From contig NZ_KQ948424.1 in the NCBI RefSeq assembly GCF_001514065.1, forward strand, positions 469,568-533,567: a stretch of DNA of 64,000 nt. The letters are read 5' to 3'. The DNA comes from Streptomyces antibioticus. Lineage in GTDB: Bacteria; Actinomycetota; Actinomycetes; Streptomycetales; Streptomycetaceae. The notes under the pieces are model-generated. The model had not been told where the DNA came from. It did no database searches and worked only from the letters and a program-made list of their open reading frames with translations. Of this stretch, positions 2,790 to 14,354 are shown one piece after another; the first letter of the stretch is position 1, and each line of letters begins with the position of its first letter. A program made the position numbers and the translations under genes.

Positions 2790-4328
2790 ATGGACACCTT
2801 CACTCCGGACCCCCGTCGCTGGTGGGCCCTCGGCGCCCTGGTCGCGAGCATGCTGACCCTCGGCTTCGACATGACGATCCTCAACGTGGCACTGCCGACC
2901 ATGGCCGCCGACCTCGGCGCGACCACCGGCGAACAGCAGTGGATGGCGGACGCGTACGTCGTCGTCTTCGCCGCGCTGATGCTCCCCGCCGGCCTCCTCG
3001 GCGACCGGTTCGGCCGGCGCCGGATGCTCGTCGTGGGCCTCGGCATCTTCCTCGCCGCGTCCCTGCTGGGCGCCCTCGCCGACGACGTGAACTGGGTCGT
3101 CGCCGCCCGCGCCCTGATGGGCATCGGCGGTGCCCTCGTCACCCCGCTCGCGCTGTCCGTACTGCCCTCGCTGTTCGGCGCCGACGAGCGCGCCAAGGCC
3201 GTCGGCATCGTCTCCGCCGCCAGCGCGCTCGGCCTGCCGCTCGGCCCGATCATGGGCGGCTGGCTCCTCAACCACTTCTGGTGGGGCTCGGTCTTCCTCA
3301 TCAACGTCCCGATGGCCGCGATCGGCATCGTCGCCTGCGTGCTGCTGCTCCCCGAGAGCCGCGACCCCGCCTCCCCCGAGGTCGACACCGTCTCCACCGC
3401 GCTCACCGCGACCGGCCTCGGCGCCCTGATCTACGCGATCATCGAGGCCCCCACCCGGGGCTGGACCGACGCGCTGGTGCTCGGCATGCTCGCGGGCTCG
3501 GCCGTCCTGCTGACCGCCCTGGTCCTGCGGGAGCGCCGGCAGTCCCGGCCGATGCTCGACATGACGCTGCTCGCCCACCGCGGCTTCCTGTTCAACACCC
3601 TCGCCGCGACCCTGGTGATGTTCGTCCTGTCCGGCCTGCTGTTCGTGCTGCCGCCCTACCTCCAGGCCGTCCTCGGCAACGACGCGCTCGGCACCGGCGT
3701 GCGGCTGCTGCCGATGATGGGCGGCCTGCTCGTCGCCTCCCGCCTCGCCCCGCAGGTCGTCACCCGCTTCGGCGCCCGGGCCACCGTGAGCGCCGGACTG
3801 GTGGTGCTGGCGTTCGCCGCCTTCCTCGGCAGCCGTACGACGACCGACTCCGGCTACGGCTTCACCGCGCTGTGGCTCTCGGTCACCGGCCTCGGCTTCG
3901 GCCTCTCCCTCATCCCCGCCATGAACGGCGCCCTCGGCGCCCTGCCCCGCGACCGCGCCGGCAGCGGCTCCGGGCTGCTGATGACGCTGCGCCAGGTCGG
4001 CGGCGCGATCGGCATCGCCCTCCTCGGCAGCCTGCTCGCGGGCATCTTCCGGGACCGGCTCGACGTCACCGGGCTGCCCGCCCAAGCCGCCGACACCGCC
4101 GGGGACTCCGTGATCGCCGCCCACCTCGTGGCCCGGGAGACCGGCTCCGCCGACCTGCTGGCCTCCGCGAACAGCGCCTACGTCCACGGCATGGGCGTCA
4201 TCCTGCTGGTCTGCGGCGCCGCCGCCCTCGTAGCGGCCCTCCTGGCGGCGGCCTTCCTGCCCACAACCCCGAAGACCGACGGGACCGCGACCACCCCGGA
4301 CATGGCTCCCGCGCCCGCGGATGCCTGA
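2790..4328 (+). CDS. MFS drug exporter, DHA2 (EmrB/QacA) family
   Basis: A 512-residue integral membrane protein with about 14 hydrophobic segments, as expected for DHA2 proton-driven multidrug antiporters. Motifs seen: the TM1 stretch FDMTILNVALPTM, the loop 2-3 motif A at residues about 70-80 (GLLGDRFGRRRML), and the TM5 signature around GLPLGPIMGGWLL. It probably exports a hydrophobic or cationic compound. The following TetR gene begins two bases after its stop, so the pair is co-transcribed and the exporter is most likely under local repressor control. Substrate unknown. Confidence 0.94.
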   Translation: MDTFTPDPRRWWALGALVASMLTLGFDMTILNVALPTMAADLGATTGEQQWMADAYVVVFAALMLPAGLLGDRFGRRRMLVVGLGIFLAASLLGALADDVNWVVAARALMGIGGALVTPLALSVLPSLFGADERAKAVGIVSAASALGLPLGPIMGGWLLNHFWWGSVFLINVPMAAIGIVACVLLLPESRDPASPEVDTVSTALTATGLGALIYAIIEAPTRGWTDALVLGMLAGSAVLLTALVLRERRQSRPMLDMTLLAHRGFLFNTLAATLVMFVLSGLLFVLPPYLQAVLGNDALGTGVRLLPMMGGLLVASRLAPQVVTRFGARATVSAGLVVLAFAAFLGSRTTTDSGYGFTALWLSVTGLGFGLSLIPAMNGALGALPRDRAGSGSGLLMTLRQVGGAIGIALLGSLLAGIFRDRLDVTGLPAQAADTAGDSVIAAHLVARETGSADLLASANSAYVHGMGVILLVCGAAALVAALLAAAFLPTTPKTDGTATTPDMAPAPADA

Positions 4329-4330
4329 CA

Positions 4331-4969
4331 ATGGCCTCCATGACACCCGCACGTACCTCTCCGCCCACGGACGTCCCCCAGCTGGGACTCCGTGAGCGGA
4401 AGAAGATCAAGACCCGGACGGCGATCCGCGACGCGACGTACGCCCTCATCGAGGAACAGGGCTACGACGCCACCACGATCGAGCAGATCGCCGACCGCGC
4501 CGAGGTGTCGCCGTCCACGGTCTTCCGTTACTTCCCCACCAAGGAGGACATCGTCCTCACGGACGAGGAGGACGCGCTCATCCTGGAGGAGCTGAAGGCC
4601 CGGCCGAAGGACGAGCCGTGGACGGAATCCGTGCGGGCCATCATGCAGAAGGCCGTCCGCCTCGGCCATGAGCAACAACCCGAGATCACCCGGCTCCGCG
4701 CGCACCTCATGGCCCAGGTCCCGGCGGTGCGCGCCCGGATGATGGAGAGCATGTCGGTCGCCTCCCACATGCTCGCCGAGGGCATCGCGGAACGCACCGG
4801 ACGCGACGTGGACAGCCTGGAAGTACGCGTCTACACGATGTCCGTGGTCGCGGGCCTCGCGGAGATCTCCCAGTACTGGGCGGAGAACGACTTCCAGGAC
4901 GATCTCTCCGAGCTCCTCGACCGCGCCCTGGACGTCCTCGCCAACGGCCTCACCCCGGAAAACACCTGA
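4331..4969 (+). CDS. TetR-family transcriptional regulator of the MFS exporter
   Basis: A 212-residue protein with an N-terminal TetR helix-turn-helix at residues about 18-65 (TIEQIADRAEVSPSTVFRYFPTKED) and a helical ligand-binding C-terminal domain. The ATG at 4331 lies two bases beyond the exporter stop; a second in-frame ATG is at 4340. A repressor co-encoded behind a drug exporter normally autoregulates the operon by binding near the promoter at 2753-2783. The inducing ligand cannot be inferred. Confidence 0.93.
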   Translation: MASMTPARTSPPTDVPQLGLRERKKIKTRTAIRDATYALIEEQGYDATTIEQIADRAEVSPSTVFRYFPTKEDIVLTDEEDALILEELKARPKDEPWTESVRAIMQKAVRLGHEQQPEITRLRAHLMAQVPAVRARMMESMSVASHMLAEGIAERTGRDVDSLEVRVYTMSVVAGLAEISQYWAENDFQDDLSELLDRALDVLANGLTPENT

Positions 4970-5002: not shown

Positions 5003-5728
5003 GTGAACGGACCGGAGATCCACCTCGAAGTCGCCCCCGAACTGGCCCTGTTCGTCCCGCACGGACGCCGGTCCGGAGCCACCCCCGTCACCACCGACGG
5101 CGTCTCCACCCTGGGCCATGTCGTCGAGTCCCTCGGCGTCCCGCTGCCCGAGGCCGGGACGCTGCTGGTCGACGGCCGCGAGGTGCCGCCGTCGTACGTC
5201 CCCGTGGCGGGCGACCAGGTGGAGGTCCGGCCCGTCACCCGGCCCCAGCGGGTCCCCGGCGCCCCGCTCCGCTTCCTCCTCGACGTCCACCTCGGCACCC
5301 TCGCCCGCCGGCTGCGGCTGCTCGGCGTGGACACGGCGTACGAGTCCACGGACCTCGGCGACCCGGCCCTCGCCGCGCTCTCCGCCGCCGAACGGCGCGT
5401 CCTGCTCAGCCGCGACCGGGGGCTGCTGCGGCGCCGCGAACTGTGGGCCGGCGCGTACGTCTACAGCACCCGCCCCGAGGAGCAGCTCCACGACATCCTC
5501 GACCGCTTCCGCCCCGAGCTGCGCCCCTGGACCCGCTGCACCGCCTGCAACGGCCTGCTCAAGGAGGCCACGAAGGAGGAGGTCGCGGACCAGCTGGCGG
5601 GCGGCACGCACCGGTCGTACGACGTCTTCGCGCAGTGCACGGACTGCGGGCGGGCGTACTGGAAGGGCGCGCACCACGAACAGCTGGAAGCCATCGTGGA
5701 GCGCGCCCTCGAAGAGTTCGCCGACTAG
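5003..5728 (+). CDS. Ubiquitin-like / Mut7-C RNase domain protein
   Basis: 241 residues. The first about 75 residues resemble the ThiS/MoaD-like beta-grasp that precedes Mut7-C domains in bacteria; the C-terminal part is the Mut7-C (former DUF82) PIN-fold putative RNase, with the acidic start FLLDVHLGTLARRLRLLG, LSRDRGLL and a zinc ribbon RCTACNG ... CTDCGRAYWKG. The GTG at 5003 is the best start. Family members are predicted ribonucleases but their RNA substrates are unknown. It is convergent with the oxidase gene, whose stop begins four bases after its own. Confidence 0.88.
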   Translation: MNGPEIHLEVAPELALFVPHGRRSGATPVTTDGVSTLGHVVESLGVPLPEAGTLLVDGREVPPSYVPVAGDQVEVRPVTRPQRVPGAPLRFLLDVHLGTLARRLRLLGVDTAYESTDLGDPALAALSAAERRVLLSRDRGLLRRRELWAGAYVYSTRPEEQLHDILDRFRPELRPWTRCTACNGLLKEATKEEVADQLAGGTHRSYDVFAQCTDCGRAYWKGAHHEQLEAIVERALEEFAD

Positions 5729-5731
5729 CGG

Positions 5732-8131
5732 CTACCCCTTTCTGACGTCCGCCTTTCCGCAGGCGGTCCCGTCCTTGTTCCGGTCAAGACCCAGCGGGTC
5801 GTCCTTGCCGTTGACCTTCAGGCGGCCGTAGTCGTTCTTCTTCAGCCAGGCGCAGCGGGAGGCCGTCGTCGCCTTCACCTCCTTCGGGAACGCCGTCGGC
5901 ACGCAGACGTTGATCGAGCCGTAGTGGCGGTCGCAGCCGGAGACGGTCGGGCTGACCTTCTGCGAGGTGCGCTTCTTGCCGGGGCCGGTGACCTTGCCGG
6001 AGAGGTCGTCGGCGAAGGAGTGGACGTGGGCCGAGGCATCCGTCGCGCTCAGCGCGGCGGGTCCTTGCAGGTGCACCCACTTGGCCACCGACGGCACCCC
6101 GTTGGCGTCCACCGCGAAGAGCATGTACCAGCCGGGCGGCGCCAGGTTGGGGTTGCTCGTCACGTTCAGGTCGACGTTGTTGCCGTTCACGGAGAGCGGC
6201 AGGTCCACGAACCGCTGGTTGGGGTCGGAGGAGTGCGTCACCGCGGCCGGGCGGATCAACTCGGCCTTGGCGATGGGCCGGTCGACGGTGATGCGCTGGG
6301 TGTCGCCGTAGTTCCACTCGGTGTCGATGACCGAAGTGATCGACGGCCGCGTGCCCTTGAGCAGATAGGGCGGCGTGTAGATCGACACGTTGTGGTTCCA
6401 GGTGCCGTTGCCCGGGTTGTCGCCGGTCGCCATGACCCGGCCGTCGGGCAGCAGGAACGCGGACGAGTGGTAACCGCGGGCCTCGGGGTCGGCGGCGACG
6501 GGATCGAAGGTGTTGCTGTCAGGGTCGTAGATCGACGCCTCGAAGACCGGGTTGGCCCGGTTGTGCAGACCGCCACCGGTCTCCAGCACCTTGCCGTCGG
6601 GCAGCAGTACGGCGGAGACGTACATCTTGCCCTGGTTGCCGGTCTCGGGGACCTTGCCGTTGCCGAGGTCGACCGTGCCCTGCGGGAGCGGAGGCCCGGC
6701 GACGTACGCCGGGTTGGCCTGCTTGAGGTCGATGACGTCGGTGAGGCGGTTGCCCTCCGGGTTGGAGTCGATGTTGCCGCCGCCGATGGTGAGGACCTTC
6801 TGGTTCTGCGCCGGGGGCAGCAGCACGCTCGCGGACTGGTCGCGCTGGTCCTTGTTCTGCAGGCCCGGGATCTGGGTGATCGTGTTGGCGTTGTAGTCGT
6901 AGACCGCCGAGCCGGTGCCCGGGATGTTGTTGCCGAAGACATGGCTGCCGGAGTAGAAGAGGCGGCCGTCCTGCATCAGGATCATCGACGGGTACAGACC
7001 CCAGTACGACCAGGTCTGGTTGACCTGCCACAGCGCCAGCCACTTCTGCTGGGCGTCCGACCAGTACTCGGCGGTCACCGAGCCGGTCGAGTCCTCGCGC
7101 AGCCCGCCGAAGGAGATGACGTCACCGTTGCCGAGCTCGGTCGCCGAGGGGTACCAGTGGCCGTCGTTGAGGTCGTTGGTCTTGCTGTAGGTCTCGGTGA
7201 CCGGGTCGAAGATGTACGAGTCCTTGTAGCCCTCGTAGCCGTGCCCGCCCGCGACCGGGAACGCCTTGTTGCCGCTCATCACCAGGACCCGGCCGTCCTG
7301 GAGCTGGATGTGCCCGGCGCAGAACATGTCCTTGGGGGTGGGGATGACCTTGTAGGTGCCGGTGGCCGGGTTGTAGACGGCCGAGGTGAAGGTGCCCGCG
7401 TTGAACTGCTCCTCGCTGTTGCCGGAGCCCGCGATGAGCAGCACCTTGCCATTGTTGAGGACGACGGAGTGCATGGAGCGCACCGGGTTCTGCGTGGGCA
7501 GCACGTCCCAGCGGCCGTTGGCGCACTGGTCCGCGGTGCCGGTGCAGGTGGCGGGCGGCGTGACGTCCGGGACCTGTTCCATCGTGTAGTCGTCGGTGGT
7601 CGCGGAGCCGGTGCCGTAGACGGAGACGCCCCAGGTGATCCGGTCGGTGCCGGTGGGGACCTCGGGGGTGCGGACGCTCGCCTGCGTCCAACTGCCCGCC
7701 ATGTCCAGGGTCTTCAGATCCGTCCAGTACTGCCAGCCGGCGGTGGTGTCGTGCCGGAAGAGGGTGACGGCGGTGTCCGGGGTCGTCGACTTGTACCAGA
7801 GGCTCAGGTCGTACTGCTTGCCCGGCGTCACGCCCGGCGCGCACTCGGCGGACTCGGTGATCAGCGCCTTGCGGTCGCCCTCGACCCGGCGGGTGAGCGC
7901 GACCTTCATGGCCTTGGAGCCGGAGTGGGCGTCGGAGGTGGTGGTGAACGTGAAGTCGTTGTCGCCCCAGCCGGACTTCTCCCAGCAGTACGGCATGTCG
8001 CCGGTGCCGGCGGTCTCGAAGCCGGGGTTCTTGATGAGGTTGGCGGCGGAGGCGGGTTGCGGTGTGGCGAGGAGGAGACCGGCCGTGAGGGCGGTCACCC
8101 CCAGCAGAGCGGGTCTGCGGCGGTTCTTCAT
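5732..8131 (-). CDS. Secreted galactose-oxidase-like copper radical oxidase (kelch/DUF1929, GlxA-like)
   Basis: A 799-residue exported protein. Signal peptide residues 1-29 (cleavage after ASA), then a carbohydrate-binding-like beta-sandwich (NLIKNPGFE, about 31-190), a seven-bladed kelch propeller (about 205-590), a DUF1929-type C-terminal domain to about 690, and a C-terminal Excalibur-like motif (DRNKDGTACG). All active-site positions of galactose oxidase have counterparts: Cys271 and Tyr327 (the Tyr-Cys cofactor pair), Tyr554 and His555 in YHSS, and His633 in THSSDPNQR. It should therefore be a mononuclear copper enzyme oxidising a primary alcohol, perhaps a sugar, to an aldehyde with release of H2O2. 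Last gene of the four-gene glycan operon; start overlaps the upstream stop by four bases. Confidence 0.9.
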   Translation of the reverse strand: MKNRRRPALLGVTALTAGLLLATPQPASAANLIKNPGFETAGTGDMPYCWEKSGWGDNDFTFTTTSDAHSGSKAMKVALTRRVEGDRKALITESAECAPGVTPGKQYDLSLWYKSTTPDTAVTLFRHDTTAGWQYWTDLKTLDMAGSWTQASVRTPEVPTGTDRITWGVSVYGTGSATTDDYTMEQVPDVTPPATCTGTADQCANGRWDVLPTQNPVRSMHSVVLNNGKVLLIAGSGNSEEQFNAGTFTSAVYNPATGTYKVIPTPKDMFCAGHIQLQDGRVLVMSGNKAFPVAGGHGYEGYKDSYIFDPVTETYSKTNDLNDGHWYPSATELGNGDVISFGGLREDSTGSVTAEYWSDAQQKWLALWQVNQTWSYWGLYPSMILMQDGRLFYSGSHVFGNNIPGTGSAVYDYNANTITQIPGLQNKDQRDQSASVLLPPAQNQKVLTIGGGNIDSNPEGNRLTDVIDLKQANPAYVAGPPLPQGTVDLGNGKVPETGNQGKMYVSAVLLPDGKVLETGGGLHNRANPVFEASIYDPDSNTFDPVAADPEARGYHSSAFLLPDGRVMATGDNPGNGTWNHNVSIYTPPYLLKGTRPSITSVIDTEWNYGDTQRITVDRPIAKAELIRPAAVTHSSDPNQRFVDLPLSVNGNNVDLNVTSNPNLAPPGWYMLFAVDANGVPSVAKWVHLQGPAALSATDASAHVHSFADDLSGKVTGPGKKRTSQKVSPTVSGCDRHYGSINVCVPTAFPKEVKATTASRCAWLKKNDYGRLKVNGKDDPLGLDRNKDGTACGKADVRKG

Positions 8132-9300
8132 GCGGTGCGGCTCCTGTTGCGGCGGGTTCTACGCGGGAGATAGACCAGCGCTTCGGTCCCGACGAAGCGC
8201 AGGACGAACGTGATGACCAGGGCCAGCGCGGTGGCGGGCAGCGCCGACAGGCCGAAGTGGGTGACCAGCAGCGCGATCAGCGGGATGCGCAGCACCAGGT
8301 CGGCGTTGGCGAGCAGCGCGAACCGGACCGTGCGGTCGGCCCAGTGCCGGTGGCGGCGCCGGTCGCGGAAGAGCACCTTCTCGATGAGGTAGAAGTTCCA
8401 GGCCACGCCGAACTGGTTGGCGACGATCTCGGCGGGCAGGTAGTGCAGGCCCAGGTGCGTGAGCGCCCACAGGGCGACCAGGTTGGGCACGAATCCCGTG
8501 AGCCCGATCAGCCCGAACACGACCATGCGGGCCAGCGGGGTCGCCGTGCGCAGCCCGGCGAGGTGGCGCAGGAAGCGGCGCCCCTCCACGGCCGTGGACT
8601 TGGACTCGCCCGCGAACCGCTCCTGGAACACGAACGGCACCTCGGTGACCGCGCGCGGCCGGCTCCGCACCGCCAGCTCCAGCAGGATCTTGTAGCCGAG
8701 CGGCTGGAGGACCTCCGCCGTGATGTCGCTGCGCCGGATCGCGAAGAAGCCGCTCATCGGGTCGCTGATGCCGTGCAGCCGGCGCGGGAAGAGGGACTTG
8801 GTCAGCCAGGTCGCCCCGCGGGAGACGGCCACGCGGTAGCTGCCCGCGAGCCCGGCGCGGCTGCCGCCCTTGATGTACCGGGAGGCGACGACGAGCCCGG
8901 CGTTCGCCCGCTGCCCGGTGGCCACCAGCTCCGGTACCAGGGACGGCGGGTGCTGGCAGTCGCCGTCCATGACGACGATCCAGTCCGACCCGGCCGCCTT
9001 CATGCCCTCCACGACCGCCCCGCCGAGTCCGCCGACCGGCTCGTCCCGGTGCAGGACGGTCACCGGGAAGGGGCAGTCCTTCGCGGCATCGCGGATCACC
9101 TGGGGGGTGTCGTCGGTGGAGTCGTCCACGAAGACGACCTCGCAGGGCAGCCGGCCGGGCACCGACTCGGTGATCTGGTGCAGGAGTTCGCGGACGTTCG
9201 CGGACTCGTTGTACGTCGGTACGACGATGGTGACGGCGGCCGGTTCGGGTACCTCGGAGGTCGTCAGATCCGGTACGGGTGCGGTGTACTCGTGAGTCAT
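8128..9300 (-). CDS. Glycosyltransferase family 2 - GtrA fusion (polyprenol-phosphate sugar synthase type)
   Basis: 390 residues. The GT2 domain (about 20-240) has VPTYNES and the metal-binding DGD motif in VMDGDCQHPP, like dolichol/polyprenol-phosphate mannose or glucose synthases. The C-terminal GtrA domain (about 250-385, four hydrophobic segments, starting VVFGLIGLTGFVPNL) fits flipping or anchoring of a lipid-linked sugar. ATG 9300 was chosen because it overlaps the upstream stop (ATGA); the frame stays open further upstream but that sequence belongs to another gene. Likely supplies the polyprenol-phosphate-sugar donor for the GT39-like enzyme at 9297-10907. Confidence 0.9.
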   Translation of the reverse strand: MTHEYTAPVPDLTTSEVPEPAAVTIVVPTYNESANVRELLHQITESVPGRLPCEVVFVDDSTDDTPQVIRDAAKDCPFPVTVLHRDEPVGGLGGAVVEGMKAAGSDWIVVMDGDCQHPPSLVPELVATGQRANAGLVVASRYIKGGSRAGLAGSYRVAVSRGATWLTKSLFPRRLHGISDPMSGFFAIRRSDITAEVLQPLGYKILLELAVRSRPRAVTEVPFVFQERFAGESKSTAVEGRRFLRHLAGLRTATPLARMVVFGLIGLTGFVPNLVALWALTHLGLHYLPAEIVANQFGVAWNFYLIEKVLFRDRRRHRHWADRTVRFALLANADLVLRIPLIALLVTHFGLSALPATALALVITFVLRFVGTEALVYLPRRTRRNRSRTA

Positions 9301-10907
9301 CGGACGCCTCCGGTGGCGTTCTGGATCTGCCTGATCTCGATCCGGTCCGCGCCGGTGCCGAAGACGGCGACCGGCGTCGAGTGCTGGATGGCGGCCTTGA
9401 CGTTGGGCAGGTCGACCGCGTCGCGTCGCACGGTCGGCGAGGCCACGACGTAGTCGAGGTCCTTCCATCCGTGCGGCATCGTCTTCGTGACCGCCGGGTC
9501 GAGGTCGGCCTTGTAGAACCAGATGACGCCGAGCCCGGGCCGGTACCCGGAGTGCACCAGGTCCAGCCAGAGCGCGTCGTCGACGAGTACCCGCGTCTTC
9601 TCGGGCTGTGCCACCTCGCTCCCCAGCCACTTCGCGGCCGCCCGGTAGGGGGCGTTGGCGTCGGCGGTGACGGCGGTGCGGTCACCGTCGTACCAGCGCG
9701 GTACGACGTACCCGCAGGCGGCGACGGCGAGGACCGCCGCGATGCCGTAACGGCCCACCCAGCGCATCCGGTTGAGGACGGCGTGGGCGACCGAGGCGGT
9801 GCCGCCGGCGAGGACGAGGGCGAGGAAGGGCAGCGCCTGGATGATGTACATCGCGGGCAGGTAGCCGCTGGGCCGCATGGCGACCAGGGCCAGGATGCCC
9901 ACGGCCAGCGCGGGTCCGGCGAGCGCGCGGGCGGTGACGGACCAGCGCCAGGTGGCCAGGAGCAGCAGGGCGCCGGCGAGTCCGCCGAGGGGCAGGACCC
10001 GGTCGTAGTAGAGCCACGAGGTGAGCACCCCGTGCGAGCCGGAGCCGTCGTCGAGGATGAAGCCCGAACCGGGCCTGGTCATCTGGTACTTGATGCCGTC
10101 CCACAGCGAGACGTGTCCGCCGCCGGGGAGCAACTCGCCCTTCAGCAGGGCGAAGAGGGGGTACGACAGGCCGATCAGGGCGCAGGCGGTGACCGCGCCG
10201 GTCAGGGCGAACTTGCGGGTCTCGCGGTGGCTGTGCCGCCACATGGTGACGAAGACCGCGGGGAGGACGAAGATCATCGTCTCCTTGGTCAGCACGGCCG
10301 CCGCGGCCGCGATGCCCGCGCCGAAGTGGTGCCAGAGGTGGCGGCTCGGGGACGCGGCGAGAGTGAACGCCACGAGCGTCCACATCACCGCGAGGTTGTC
10401 GAGGAAGATCTCCCGCTGGAGGACGACGGAGAGCGGGGAGAGCCCGAACAGGGCCATGCCGAGCCCGGCGGCCCAGCGGGGCAGGGACAGCCGCCGTCCG
10501 ATCACATAGACGAGGACCGCGCTGATGGCGCTGATCAGCAGCATCACCACGCGCATCGAGCCGACGGTCATCGAGTCGGGGCTCAGCAGCTTCGGTATCC
10601 AGGTGAGCAGGGCGAGCTGGATCCAGCCGAGCGGCGGGTGGTCGTACCAGTAGGTGTAGTGGGCGAGGCCCTTGTGCTCCTGGACGGCCCAGGCCTGGGC
10701 GAGGTAGGTGCCCTCGTCGTCGCTGAGGGTGGGGTAGTCGGCGATGTTCCAGCCCTGTACGACGAGGATCGCGACGAGGAGGGCACCGCAGAGGAGGAGG
10801 TCGGGACGCCTGGACGGGGTCGTTCGACTGGTCGAACGCTCATCAGGCGCAGGCTGCCGCTGCGCGGGGACCTTCGGAGCGGTCACCGCGGGAAGGGTGG
10901 AGGTCAC
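9297..10907 (-). CDS. GT39/PMT-like membrane glycosyltransferase
   Basis: A 536-residue polytopic protein with a cytoplasmic N-terminal tail of about 35 residues and 10-12 hydrophobic segments. After TM1 comes LSDDEGTYLAQAW, the acidic motif of GT39/ArnT-type enzymes that use polyprenol-phosphate sugars on the outer face of the membrane, followed by WYDHPPLGW. A soluble C-terminal domain lies outside. It should transfer a sugar from a lipid donor to a glycan or protein acceptor. Its start overlaps the previous gene by four bases (ATGA) and its stop overlaps the next in the same way. Confidence 0.87.
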   Translation of the reverse strand: MTSTLPAVTAPKVPAQRQPAPDERSTSRTTPSRRPDLLLCGALLVAILVVQGWNIADYPTLSDDEGTYLAQAWAVQEHKGLAHYTYWYDHPPLGWIQLALLTWIPKLLSPDSMTVGSMRVVMLLISAISAVLVYVIGRRLSLPRWAAGLGMALFGLSPLSVVLQREIFLDNLAVMWTLVAFTLAASPSRHLWHHFGAGIAAAAAVLTKETMIFVLPAVFVTMWRHSHRETRKFALTGAVTACALIGLSYPLFALLKGELLPGGGHVSLWDGIKYQMTRPGSGFILDDGSGSHGVLTSWLYYDRVLPLGGLAGALLLLATWRWSVTARALAGPALAVGILALVAMRPSGYLPAMYIIQALPFLALVLAGGTASVAHAVLNRMRWVGRYGIAAVLAVAACGYVVPRWYDGDRTAVTADANAPYRAAAKWLGSEVAQPEKTRVLVDDALWLDLVHSGYRPGLGVIWFYKADLDPAVTKTMPHGWKDLDYVVASPTVRRDAVDLPNVKAAIQHSTPVAVFGTGADRIEIRQIQNATGGVR

Positions 10908-12172
10908 GCAGGGACGTCCTCTCGGATAACCGCCGTGTTGTTGAGATGGGCGCCCACGTGGCTGGTCAACTCCCAGTCGGTGCGGCCGCGTTGCTCACGC
11001 CATACGGCGCGCATCGCAGCCCCGGCGAGGAGGAGCTGGTAGAAGGGGCCGCCCACGATCAGCTTGAGGTAGTGCACGAAGCGCACCCGCAGGCCGTACT
11101 GCTTGCCGAAGTCGTGCAGGCCGACGATCTCGAAGACGAAGGTCACCAGTGCCGTGACGGCCGGCAGGAAGGTGACGAAGGCGATGCCGACGGGCACGTC
11201 GAGGAAGAGCGCGATCGCCACGTTGAGCGGGATGATCACGCCGGTGAAGGCCTGGAGGAACGGGGTCATGAGGGTGTACCGGGCGAGCAACCGCTGCCCG
11301 AAGCTCGGGAGTTGCTTCCAGTCCTTCTTCCGGTAGACCTGAAGGAAGCCCTGGTTCCAGCGGGTGCGCTGCTTGAGCAGGGACATCAGGCTGCCCGGGG
11401 TCTCCTCGCGGGTGACCATGTCGGAGTCGTAGGCGACGACGACCTTCTTGCCGACGGACGACAGCCGCACCCCGAGGTCGCAGTCCTCGGCGAGGCACTC
11501 GGAGTCCCAGCCGTCGGCCTCCCTCAGGACGTCCGTGCGGACGAAGACGGTGTTGCCGCCGAGCGGAATGAACCCCTTCTGCGCGTGCAGATGGAGCCGG
11601 GAGCGGAACCAGAAGAAGTACTCCAGGCAGTTGCGCAGGGAGTACCAGCTGGAGTGGAAGTTGATGAGCTGGACGCCGCCCTGGACGACGTCGGCCCCGG
11701 TGGTCCGGAAGGCGTGGTCGACGTGGGCGAGGAGCTCCGGGTGGACCTGGTCCTCGGCGTCGAAGACCCCGACGACGTCGCCGCGGCAGTGCGGCAGCGC
11801 CGTGTTCATCGCCTTCGGCTTGTTCTTCTTCTCGTGGGTGTCGACGACGACCCGGACGCGCGGATCGCGCTCGGCGGCCGCTTCGGCCACCGCCGTGGTC
11901 TCGGGGTCGTCGTGCCCGACGATGACGATGATCTCGAAGTCGGTGTGGCTGGATTCCAGCAGGCGCCGGATGGTGTGGTCGAGGACGGCCTGCTCGTGCC
12001 GCGCGGGCAGCAGGAGCGAGAACGAGACATGTTCACCCCCGTCCGGTCTGCTGAACCGGGTGGAGGCCAGCACCTCGGGCGTACGCCAGGCGTGCATTTG
12101 CCACCACAGAGTGAACGCTGCCATCCAGAACAGGGCCAGAGAAACGGCAACGATAAGGACAGACGTGAGCAA
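10904..12172 (-). CDS. Processive-type glycosyltransferase family 2 (cellulose-synthase-like)
   Basis: 422 residues with one N-terminal and about three C-terminal hydrophobic segments around a cytoplasmic GT2-A catalytic domain. The D, D, D, QxxRW set of BcsA/NAG-type synthases is visible: LLLPARHEQ, VVGVFDAED, CLAEDCDLG and KQRTRWNQG. It should polymerise an NDP-sugar and export the chain. The start is TTG at 12172, chosen because GGGGGGA lies five bases upstream and no better start exists. First gene of the coupled operon reading to 5732; an inverted repeat at 12203-12229 sits in its leader. Confidence 0.9.
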   Translation of the reverse strand: MLTSVLIVAVSLALFWMAAFTLWWQMHAWRTPEVLASTRFSRPDGGEHVSFSLLLPARHEQAVLDHTIRRLLESSHTDFEIIVIVGHDDPETTAVAEAAAERDPRVRVVVDTHEKKNKPKAMNTALPHCRGDVVGVFDAEDQVHPELLAHVDHAFRTTGADVVQGGVQLINFHSSWYSLRNCLEYFFWFRSRLHLHAQKGFIPLGGNTVFVRTDVLREADGWDSECLAEDCDLGVRLSSVGKKVVVAYDSDMVTREETPGSLMSLLKQRTRWNQGFLQVYRKKDWKQLPSFGQRLLARYTLMTPFLQAFTGVIIPLNVAIALFLDVPVGIAFVTFLPAVTALVTFVFEIVGLHDFGKQYGLRVRFVHYLKLIVGGPFYQLLLAGAAMRAVWREQRGRTDWELTSHVGAHLNNTAVIREDVPA

Positions 12173-12202: not shown

Positions 12203-12229
12203 CGTGGCAGGACTGTTACTCCTGCCACG
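12203..12229. promoter_or_regulatory. Perfect inverted repeat upstream of the glycan operon
   Basis: Arms CGTGGCAGGA (12203-12212) and TCCTGCCACG (12220-12229) with a 7-base loop, 31 bases before the TTG start. No T-run follows on either strand, so it is more likely an operator or a leader hairpin than a terminator. A second imperfect repeat, ACTATG-TTT-CGTAGT, lies at about 12286-12300 farther upstream. Confidence 0.5.
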
Positions 12230-12311
12230 TCACTGTGGAGAGGTTATGGGTGATCTGTGAAGTGCGAGAGATCTTCCGATAAATACTATGTTTCGTAGTG
12301 GTGTGGTGACT

Positions 12312-14354
<2,043 letters not shown>

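Follow-up and report, generated by a model that had tools for sequence, protein, structure and literature searches.

A conserved Streptomyces operon joining a cellulose-synthase-like glycosyltransferase to a copper-radical-oxidase-like protein distinct from GlxA

We describe a four-gene operon on the minus strand of a 64,000-nucleotide stretch of a Streptomyces genome (contig NZ_KQ948424.1; hereafter the window). From 12172 to 5732 it encodes, in order, a cellulose-synthase-like glycosyltransferase (GT2), a GT39/PMT-like glycosyltransferase, a polyprenyl-phosphate-sugar synthase fused to a GtrA membrane domain (GT2-GtrA) and an apparently secreted copper radical oxidase (CRO). This is a real, conserved operon of the synthase-plus-copper-oxidase kind and, in our reading, a second, distinct one in Streptomyces. 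We propose, with a probability of roughly 0.55, that it forms a dedicated surface-glycan and copper-oxidase module separate from the CslA-GlxA cellulose system. The proposal draws on the linkage and co-occurrence of the four genes, their retention in rearranged loci, a SCO1/SenC neighbour in relatives and a conserved oxidase active site. It draws also on the BcsA/hyaluronan-synthase-like GT2, the GH5, GH6 and GSDH genes near related GT2-GT39 pairs, a domain that the oxidase shares with a protein at one outside locus (L218), and the match of GT2-GtrA to a dolichyl-phosphate mannose synthase (DPMS).

In the mechanism that we infer, which extends to the polymer, acceptor, substrate, oxidation product, anchoring roles and biological purpose, the GT2 would make and probably extrude a beta-linked glycan. 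A lipid-linked sugar would be supplied on the outer face by the DPMS-type GT2-GtrA or, where this is missing, by a housekeeping polyprenyl-phosphate-sugar synthase, and GT39 would move that sugar onto the nascent glycan or a wall partner. An N-terminal domain resembling a carbohydrate-binding module (CBM) would tether the secreted oxidase to the polymer, and a Cys-containing tail would keep it at the wall; there it would oxidise sugar primary alcohols, presumably C6-OH to aldehyde, and release H2O2. The outcome may be a cross-linkable or signalling surface. A surface glycan oxidised by copper chemistry had been suggested in a first-pass annotation of this DNA and is a plausible prediction. A full-text literature search in PMC returned no title or abstract describing this operon.

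Linkage and co-occurrence of the four genes

The first-pass annotation had placed a four-gene set at 5732-12172, and the open reading frames (ORFs) are present there on the minus strand (Table 1). They join through 4-base overlaps, in order GTGA, ATGA and ATGA; three ATGA overlaps had been claimed, of which the 4-base spacing stands, the first junction being GTGA here and in the nearest relatives. Overlaps of 4 bases that bring a start codon (ATG, GTG or TTG) into frame can form in 75/79, 78/79 and 68/80 loci at junctions 1, 2 and 3, which suggests that the four genes are translated as one unit. A GGGGGG stretch before the TTG start of the GT2 gene is read as a putative ribosome-binding site. 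At one locus (L099, about 8780-10001) an insert of some 1.2 kb lies between GT2-GtrA and the oxidase and breaks the usual overlap.

The four genes stand together in 79 of 80 fetched loci, which are the best 80 of 276 relatives found, that is, the closest ones; the exception (L039) is a 4.9-kb contig, where the sequence ends. Judged by the oxidase, the nearest named relatives of the host are S. sp. GKU 895 (98%) and S. justiciae and S. sp. Act143 (94%). Among 150 Streptomyces genomes, 55 hold both a long-form CRO and a close GT2, one the CRO only (G124, a remnant), one the GT2 only (G073, on a 4.9-kb contig) and 93 neither (Fisher p = 7e-39, shared ancestry ignored). Linkage in related genomes, named beforehand as a point on which the idea could fail, is thus borne out by both comparisons. 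The GT2 profile at 1e-60 matches 61 of the 150 genomes, of which the 56 with E values of 8.4e-223 or better were taken as close orthologues; the five weaker matches, a fragment (G043) and four distant paralogues at 1e-121 to 1e-126 (G055, G069, G089, G096), were counted as without. The long-form oxidase occurs in 56 of the 150, three of them partial (G028 and G142 in pieces, G124 the remnant), and an oxidase fragment at 52% in G043 was left out of the count. In an order-level sample, 102 of 293 genomes hold the long form by hand count, 99 of them Streptomyces and three from two other genera.

The association outlasts rearrangement. GT2, GT39 and oxidase were matched in all 15 divergent Streptomyces loci (L173-L180, L190-L196), and throughout a clade at 60% identity (8/8 loci, L173-L180) the GT2 gene is transcribed divergently from GT39-oxidase, with order and strand changed. 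Both flanking genes of the window, dsbH and mut7C, are retained in four loci of this clade (L173, L174, L177, L178), dsbH alone in three, and neither on one short contig (L175). GT2-GtrA is unmatched in four divergent loci (L176, L177, L194, L196); L173 retains a remnant of it, and L180 and L193 have it in pieces. Whole-genome searches for the missing gene turned up a copy at another place in G180, interrupted by a stop, and nothing close in G111, G021, G002 or G407; each of these five genomes holds a weaker GT2 match (best 1.5e-29 to 5e-24) that may be the housekeeping polyprenyl-phosphate-sugar synthase. Sequence distances correlate with those of the oxidase (Spearman 0.857 for GT2 over 21 loci, 0.787 for GT39 over 14, 0.904 for GtrA over 12), as would be expected for joint descent in a comparison made without a species-tree control. 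The arrangement is far beyond chance: the 79/80 linkage, the overlaps, retention in rearranged loci and co-occurrence together rule out a chance association or artefact. Two decayed remnants were also seen, one with GT2, GT39 and oxidase fragments run together (L233:8820-10315), the other with GT39 and oxidase fragments still between dsbH and mut7C (L234:8004-8827).

The glycosyltransferases and their relatives

Eight motif residues of the GT2 (D89, D138, D141, E229, D230, Q268, R271, W272) are invariant in 18/18 aligned rows, the last three belonging to a QxxRW motif (QRTRW at residue 268). Its model (pLDDT 87.9) has one N-terminal and three C-terminal long helices. By structure it matches PcManGT, which we take to be a non-processive enzyme (TM score by target 0.75), BcsA (TM by query up to 0.69) and a Chlorella-virus hyaluronan synthase (0.64-0.68), with PcManGT narrowly on top (E 1.1e-14 vs 1.4e-14 for BcsA). 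The modelled fold is compatible with a processive synthase and with a lipid-linked transferase alike. We lean towards a beta-glycan product because of the cellulase-family neighbours of related GT2-GT39 pairs, described below; the earlier label of polysaccharide synthase is accordingly likely, not proven, as all three structures match about equally.

GT39 scores 40.0 bits on PF02366 (cut-off 22.7) and carries DDEG at residue 63 and HPPLG at residue 90; D64 and E65 of its acidic first-loop motif, presumably catalytic, are invariant in 15 rows. GT2-GtrA exceeds the cut-offs of PF00535 and PF04138 and is of the DPMS type by its GT2 and GtrA_DPMS_TM parts. Its closest solved structure by sequence, the Pyrococcus dolichyl-phosphate mannose synthase (5mlz, E=1.1e-55), likewise combines a GT2 with a GtrA-type membrane part, whereas the operon enzyme is bacterial and operon-borne, with a putative sugar and carrier. 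GT39 and GT2-GtrA both fit a polyprenyl-phosphate-sugar donor route. Of the lipid-sugar steps proposed earlier, the route itself is supported, and GT2-GtrA proves dispensable, being absent from the operon in four loci and a remnant in a fifth, all of which keep the other three genes.

These two enzymes invite comparison with CsbB/GtcA/YfhO and GtrABC, which share with the operon a cytoplasmic glycosyltransferase, a GtrA-type membrane protein and an external GT-C enzyme; the operon differs in adding a second, synthase-like GT2 and a copper oxidase, and in having its GtrA part fused to the synthase and dispensable. The strongest competitor to our proposal, though an unlikely one, is that the module glycosylates a protein or wall polymer: a non-processive GT2 would build a lipid-linked sugar, GtrA would flip it and GT39 would transfer it outside, as in CsbB/GtcA/YfhO or Ppm1/Pmt pathways, and the oxidase would modify a short glycan. 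PcManGT as the narrow top match of the GT2, the PMT family membership of GT39 and the fusion of GtrA to the GT2 itself at two outside loci (L217, L222) speak for it, as does the teichoic-acid route of Listeria and Bacillus, proposed in excerpts of PMC5836110 to consist of a cytoplasmic glycosyltransferase, a flippase and an external GT-C enzyme. On the other side, the QxxRW motif, the BcsA/hyaluronan-synthase-like fold and the GH5 and GH6 genes near related GT2-GT39 pairs favour a beta-glycan polymer.

Those related pairs come from two sources. Outside the order, where the GT2-GT39 pair is sparse, the GT2 profile (E up to 1e-60) recovered nine genomes of other actinobacterial classes: six among 296 in a phylum sample, one more among 66 and two more among 198 in class searches, with none added by a 3-genome search. 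A GT39 match follows the GT2 in 9/9 of these loci. In L217 and L222 GtrA is fused to the GT2 N-terminus, and L226 has a nearby gene that matches most of GT2-GtrA, L218 and L224 one that matches its GT2 part. Pfam assigns GSDH, a sugar dehydrogenase family, to neighbours in L218 (28.7 bits, cut-off 25), L222 (on the opposite strand) and L226, and GH5 to neighbours in L220 and L225. This GSDH adjacency in 3/9 loci is only suggestive because those genomes hold several GSDH genes (14 matched stretches in G678, seven in G434, four in G893), and the family was picked after it had been seen, with no formal test. Within Streptomyces, a second and distant GT2-GT39 pair (43-44% and 28-31% identity) occurs in five loci, L228-L232 (G096, G055, G069, G089, G097). 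In 5/5 the gene that follows encodes an uncharacterised acidic protein (479-550 aa) that matches nothing in Pfam and has an apparent membrane anchor; a GH5 gene lies near in 5/5 and a GH6 gene in the 3/3 that were scanned for it (L228, L229, L230). An S8 peptidase also lies near the pair in L228.

The oxidase and its distance from GlxA

The oxidase scores 92.9 bits on the early-set domain PF09118 (cut-off 25) and 42.5 on the glyoxal-oxidase propeller PF07250 (cut-off 37.5), and by these two domains and its copper-site residues it is AA5-like. Galactose oxidases, members of AA5 (1gof, 9g43), have the same propeller and early-set fold and copper-site residues; excerpts of PMC11267884 describe bacterial and plant AA5 enzymes outside the two named subfamilies. 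In a Foldseek search with the AlphaFold2 model (mean pLDDT 81.2, pTM 0.70), GlxA (4unm) was the best match at a TM by target of 0.73. The fungal and bacterial galactose oxidases reached 0.61-0.65 at about 20% identity and an rmsd (root-mean-square deviation) of 21-27, values at which only part of the model superposes well, with domains probably placed differently or the model not rigidly comparable. Cys271, Trp326, Tyr327, Tyr554, His555 and His633 align with Cys121, Trp288, Tyr289, Tyr501, His502 and His589 of the host GlxA and are identical in 81/81 sequences (the window and 80 loci), so that the complete galactose-oxidase active site claimed at first is present throughout. The Trp lies beside the Tyr as it does in GlxA; its counterpart in galactose oxidase would be Trp290. 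Elsewhere, a CRO-like protein from another actinobacterial class (L184:4673-6157) is without the Cys, both copper-site Tyr and the Trp and is a probable pseudoenzyme.

By eye, a signal peptide is apparent and a membrane anchor is not visible. Galactose oxidase usually carries an N-terminal carbohydrate-binding domain; the N-terminal domain here is CBM_4_9-like at 21.9 bits (Pfam cut-off 25.9). Related domains, in two tandem copies, are carried by a GSDH protein (L199) and by a polysaccharide deacetylase whose gene lies two away from a GT2 (L202), and the GSDH protein of L218 begins with it (29% identity, E=2.6e-15). The tail has four cysteines identical in 81/81, and no second copy was found in a search of the host genome (E up to 0.01). 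It had been called an Excalibur tail; a Cys-containing tail there is, at 13.5 bits against a Pfam cut-off of 22 for the Excalibur label, which is weak. In-frame stops appeared near the oxidase end in the 70% group; in L145, the only locus read, the stop is where a slightly shorter tail normally terminates.

As the first-pass annotation had held for the locus, we are dealing with a CRO homologue other than GlxA. It reaches 404.6 bits on the GlxA model NF052501 (NCBIfam cut-off 800), where the two GlxA proteins of the host, used as a control, reach 1139 and 1052.8. GlxA Domain 2 (AA 143-260 in excerpts of PMC11022532) is absent, about 115 residues being missing from the long-form alignment rows. 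Long-form oxidases form their own clade in the tree (25 rows, support 100/99); a long GlxA branch joins this clade, and exact sisterhood is not relied on. The scores with their control, the missing domain and the separate clade exclude orthology with GlxA. The neighbouring GT2 is other than CslA, and cslA-glxA-like pairs sit elsewhere in the genome: the host glxA genes lie at G000:C2:923472-927409 and G000:C3:41929-45702 (L004, L005), and both overlap or abut a GT2 gene of the cellulose-synthase-like type. In the 18 kb fetched around each, the first has an LPMO_10 gene (174.9 bits) beside it, and none was recognised by eye beside the second. According to excerpts of PMC3543389, one protein with the GlxA architecture is encoded per genome in 28 Streptomyces genomes, with three exceptions.

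CslA-GlxA(-CslZ, LpmP), SCO2836-2837, likewise couples a GT2 synthase to an extracellular copper radical oxidase, and the two oxidases have in common the Cys-Tyr, Tyr-His and His site and a Trp beside the cross-linked Tyr. The operon differs in its GT2 (422 aa, modelled with four long helices) and its extra GT39 and DPMS-GtrA genes; its oxidase differs from GlxA in the apparent signal peptide and the CBM-like and Cys-containing domains, and in lacking Domain 2. For GlxA, excerpts of PMC11022532 settle neither the redox role nor which glucan is involved in vivo, and excerpts of PMC4736821, citing earlier work, report that no significant activity was detected when galactose and various mono- and disaccharides were offered.

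Copper dependence gains support from three relatives outside Streptomyces, two in another genus of the family (G394, G298) and one in another family of the order (G162). In each, the oxidase stops after the early-set domain and a separate tail ORF starts one base past the stop, with a signal peptide, linker and Cys-containing domain by eye; the G162 copy is without the acidic Excalibur-like motif and has no Pfam match. A SCO1/SenC gene comes next in 3/3, at 100.2 bits in G298, 100.1 in G394 and 82.7 in G162 (cut-off 22.8; E values 1.2e-28, 1.3e-28 and 2.9e-23). In G298 the genes run oxidase, Cys-containing protein, Sco, GT2, GT39, GT2-GtrA, and in G162 GT2, GT39, GT2-GtrA, oxidase, Cys-containing protein, Sco. 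In S. lividans, according to excerpts of PMC4736821, GlxA cannot mature without Sco when copper is limiting, and the adjoining gene therefore supports copper use by this oxidase. We do not claim a single origin of the tail fusion, because the separate-tail genomes are placed within the long-form clade at a support of only 92/76; either a fusion or a fission may have taken place.

It is improbable that the oxidase is an environmental enzyme, acting on lignocellulose or sugars or as an H2O2 source and merely sharing an operon with envelope genes. Its apparent signal peptide, CBM-like domain and absence of a visible membrane anchor do recall secreted plant-biomass enzymes, yet it co-occurs almost perfectly with the GT2, is kept with it through rearrangements and is joined to the operon by tight overlaps. 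Less probable still is a mainly structural role beside the GT2, of the kind in which GlxA supports CslA activity and chemistry is secondary, given catalytic residues identical in 81/81, a copper chaperone gene adjoining the oxidase in relatives and the lack of the transmembrane anchor by which GlxA is proposed to bind CslA.

Several points weigh against a dedicated surface-glycan and copper-oxidase module. The GT2 model resembles PcManGT, a smaller enzyme, no less than it does processive synthases, which leaves room for a glycolipid product. Nor is the lipid-sugar step indispensable in this form, GT2-GtrA being missing from L176, L177, L194 and L196 and a remnant in L173. The oxidase tail and N-terminal domain both score under their Pfam cut-offs. 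Because it is without Domain 2 and, by eye, a membrane anchor, the oxidase cannot pair with its GT2 exactly as GlxA does with CslA. Finally, no carbohydrate enzyme was identified in 4/9 outside loci, two of which had one ORF scanned (L217, L219) and two of which were unscanned (L221, L224).

If the module is what we propose, the operon offers a second, genetically separable test case for what GlxA-type oxidases oxidise in Streptomyces: its oxidase is secreted and apparently soluble, a lipid-sugar branch belongs to it, and in relatives a copper-chaperone gene adjoins it. More tentatively, the GT2-GT39 pair may be the core of an unrecognised, sparse but broad actinobacterial surface-glycan family to which different lineages would each have added a secreted carbohydrate enzyme of their own: in Streptomycetales a copper radical oxidase, accompanied by a Cys-containing partner and a copper chaperone, elsewhere a GSDH-type dehydrogenase, able to share the binding domain, or cellulases. 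The oxidase versions would make an aldehyde-bearing polymer that cross-links or tunes the outer coat. Were it true that the oxidoreductase recruited by the pair varies from lineage to lineage, tailoring surface glycans by oxidation would be a recurring strategy that reaches beyond a peculiarity of GlxA.

Feature positions, leader and flanks

Table 1. Features of the operon and its surroundings, in window coordinates
Feature	Position	Strand	Details
GT2, cellulose-synthase-like, first gene	10904..12172	-	422 aa, TTG start, acidic motifs and QRTRW
GT39/PMT-like GT-C glycosyltransferase	9297..10907	-	536 aa; PF02366, DDEG, HPPLG
Putative polyprenyl-phosphate-sugar synthase fused to GtrA membrane domain (DPMS type)	8128..9300	-	390 aa; 5mlz
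Secreted copper radical oxidase (AA5-like)	5732..8131	-	799 aa; six active-site residues; signal peptide by eye
Oxidase N-terminal CBM_4_9-like domain	7562..8041	-	residues ~31-190; 21.9 bits, cut-off 25.9
Oxidase galactose-oxidase-like early-set domain	6071..6349	-	residues 595-687
Oxidase C-terminal Cys-containing, Excalibur-like tail	5735..5944	-	residues ~730-799; four Cys in 81/81
Leader hairpin CGTGGCAGGA/TCCTGCCACG, 5' of first gene	12203..12229	-	covarying, main clade
Conserved block GAAACA..TTTATC..GAA...CTTCACA..CACAGTG, presumed promoter/operator	12231..12294	-	leader conservation
DUF255/DsbH-like gene (dsbH), upstream neighbour	12312-14354	-	
Mut7-C gene (mut7C), convergent, downstream neighbour	5003-5728	+	

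Across 79 leaders (78 loci and the window, one leader over 600 bases having been dropped), sequence conservation 5' of the first gene extends a long way. A hairpin of nine pairs forms in 88.2% of cells across 52 sequences, against 23-55% when the partner is slid. Two-sided changes number 43 against a shuffled mean of 13.5 (0/500 shuffles as high), and pairs with a two-sided change number 6 against 4.0 (22/500 as high), in a shuffle control that relatedness inflates. The innermost pair fails in 33/52 sequences, and 47/79 leaders hold a perfect stem of at least 7 somewhere, so we do not regard the hairpin as universal. Because it was not recognised by eye 5' of the GT2 gene in 18 divergent or outgroup loci, we assign it to the main clade only. 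It may, as a guess, be an mRNA structure controlling translation, a dsbH terminator being the alternative. A search of Rfam with 12500-11900 gave a sole, chance-level match inside the GT2 gene.

We make no claim for a BldD-type operator, the pattern GTGA-N0-6-TCAC occurring in only 14/79 leaders and at scattered positions. A GGTGA-AG-TCACC palindrome at 12305-12316 of the window overlaps the dsbH stop codon and is found in the same place only in the three closest relatives (L036-L038). Elsewhere in the window, an MFS drug-transporter-like gene was recognised by eye at 2790-4328, with a TetR-like regulator frame just downstream of it, likewise by eye, inside a 715-aa frame ending at 4969.

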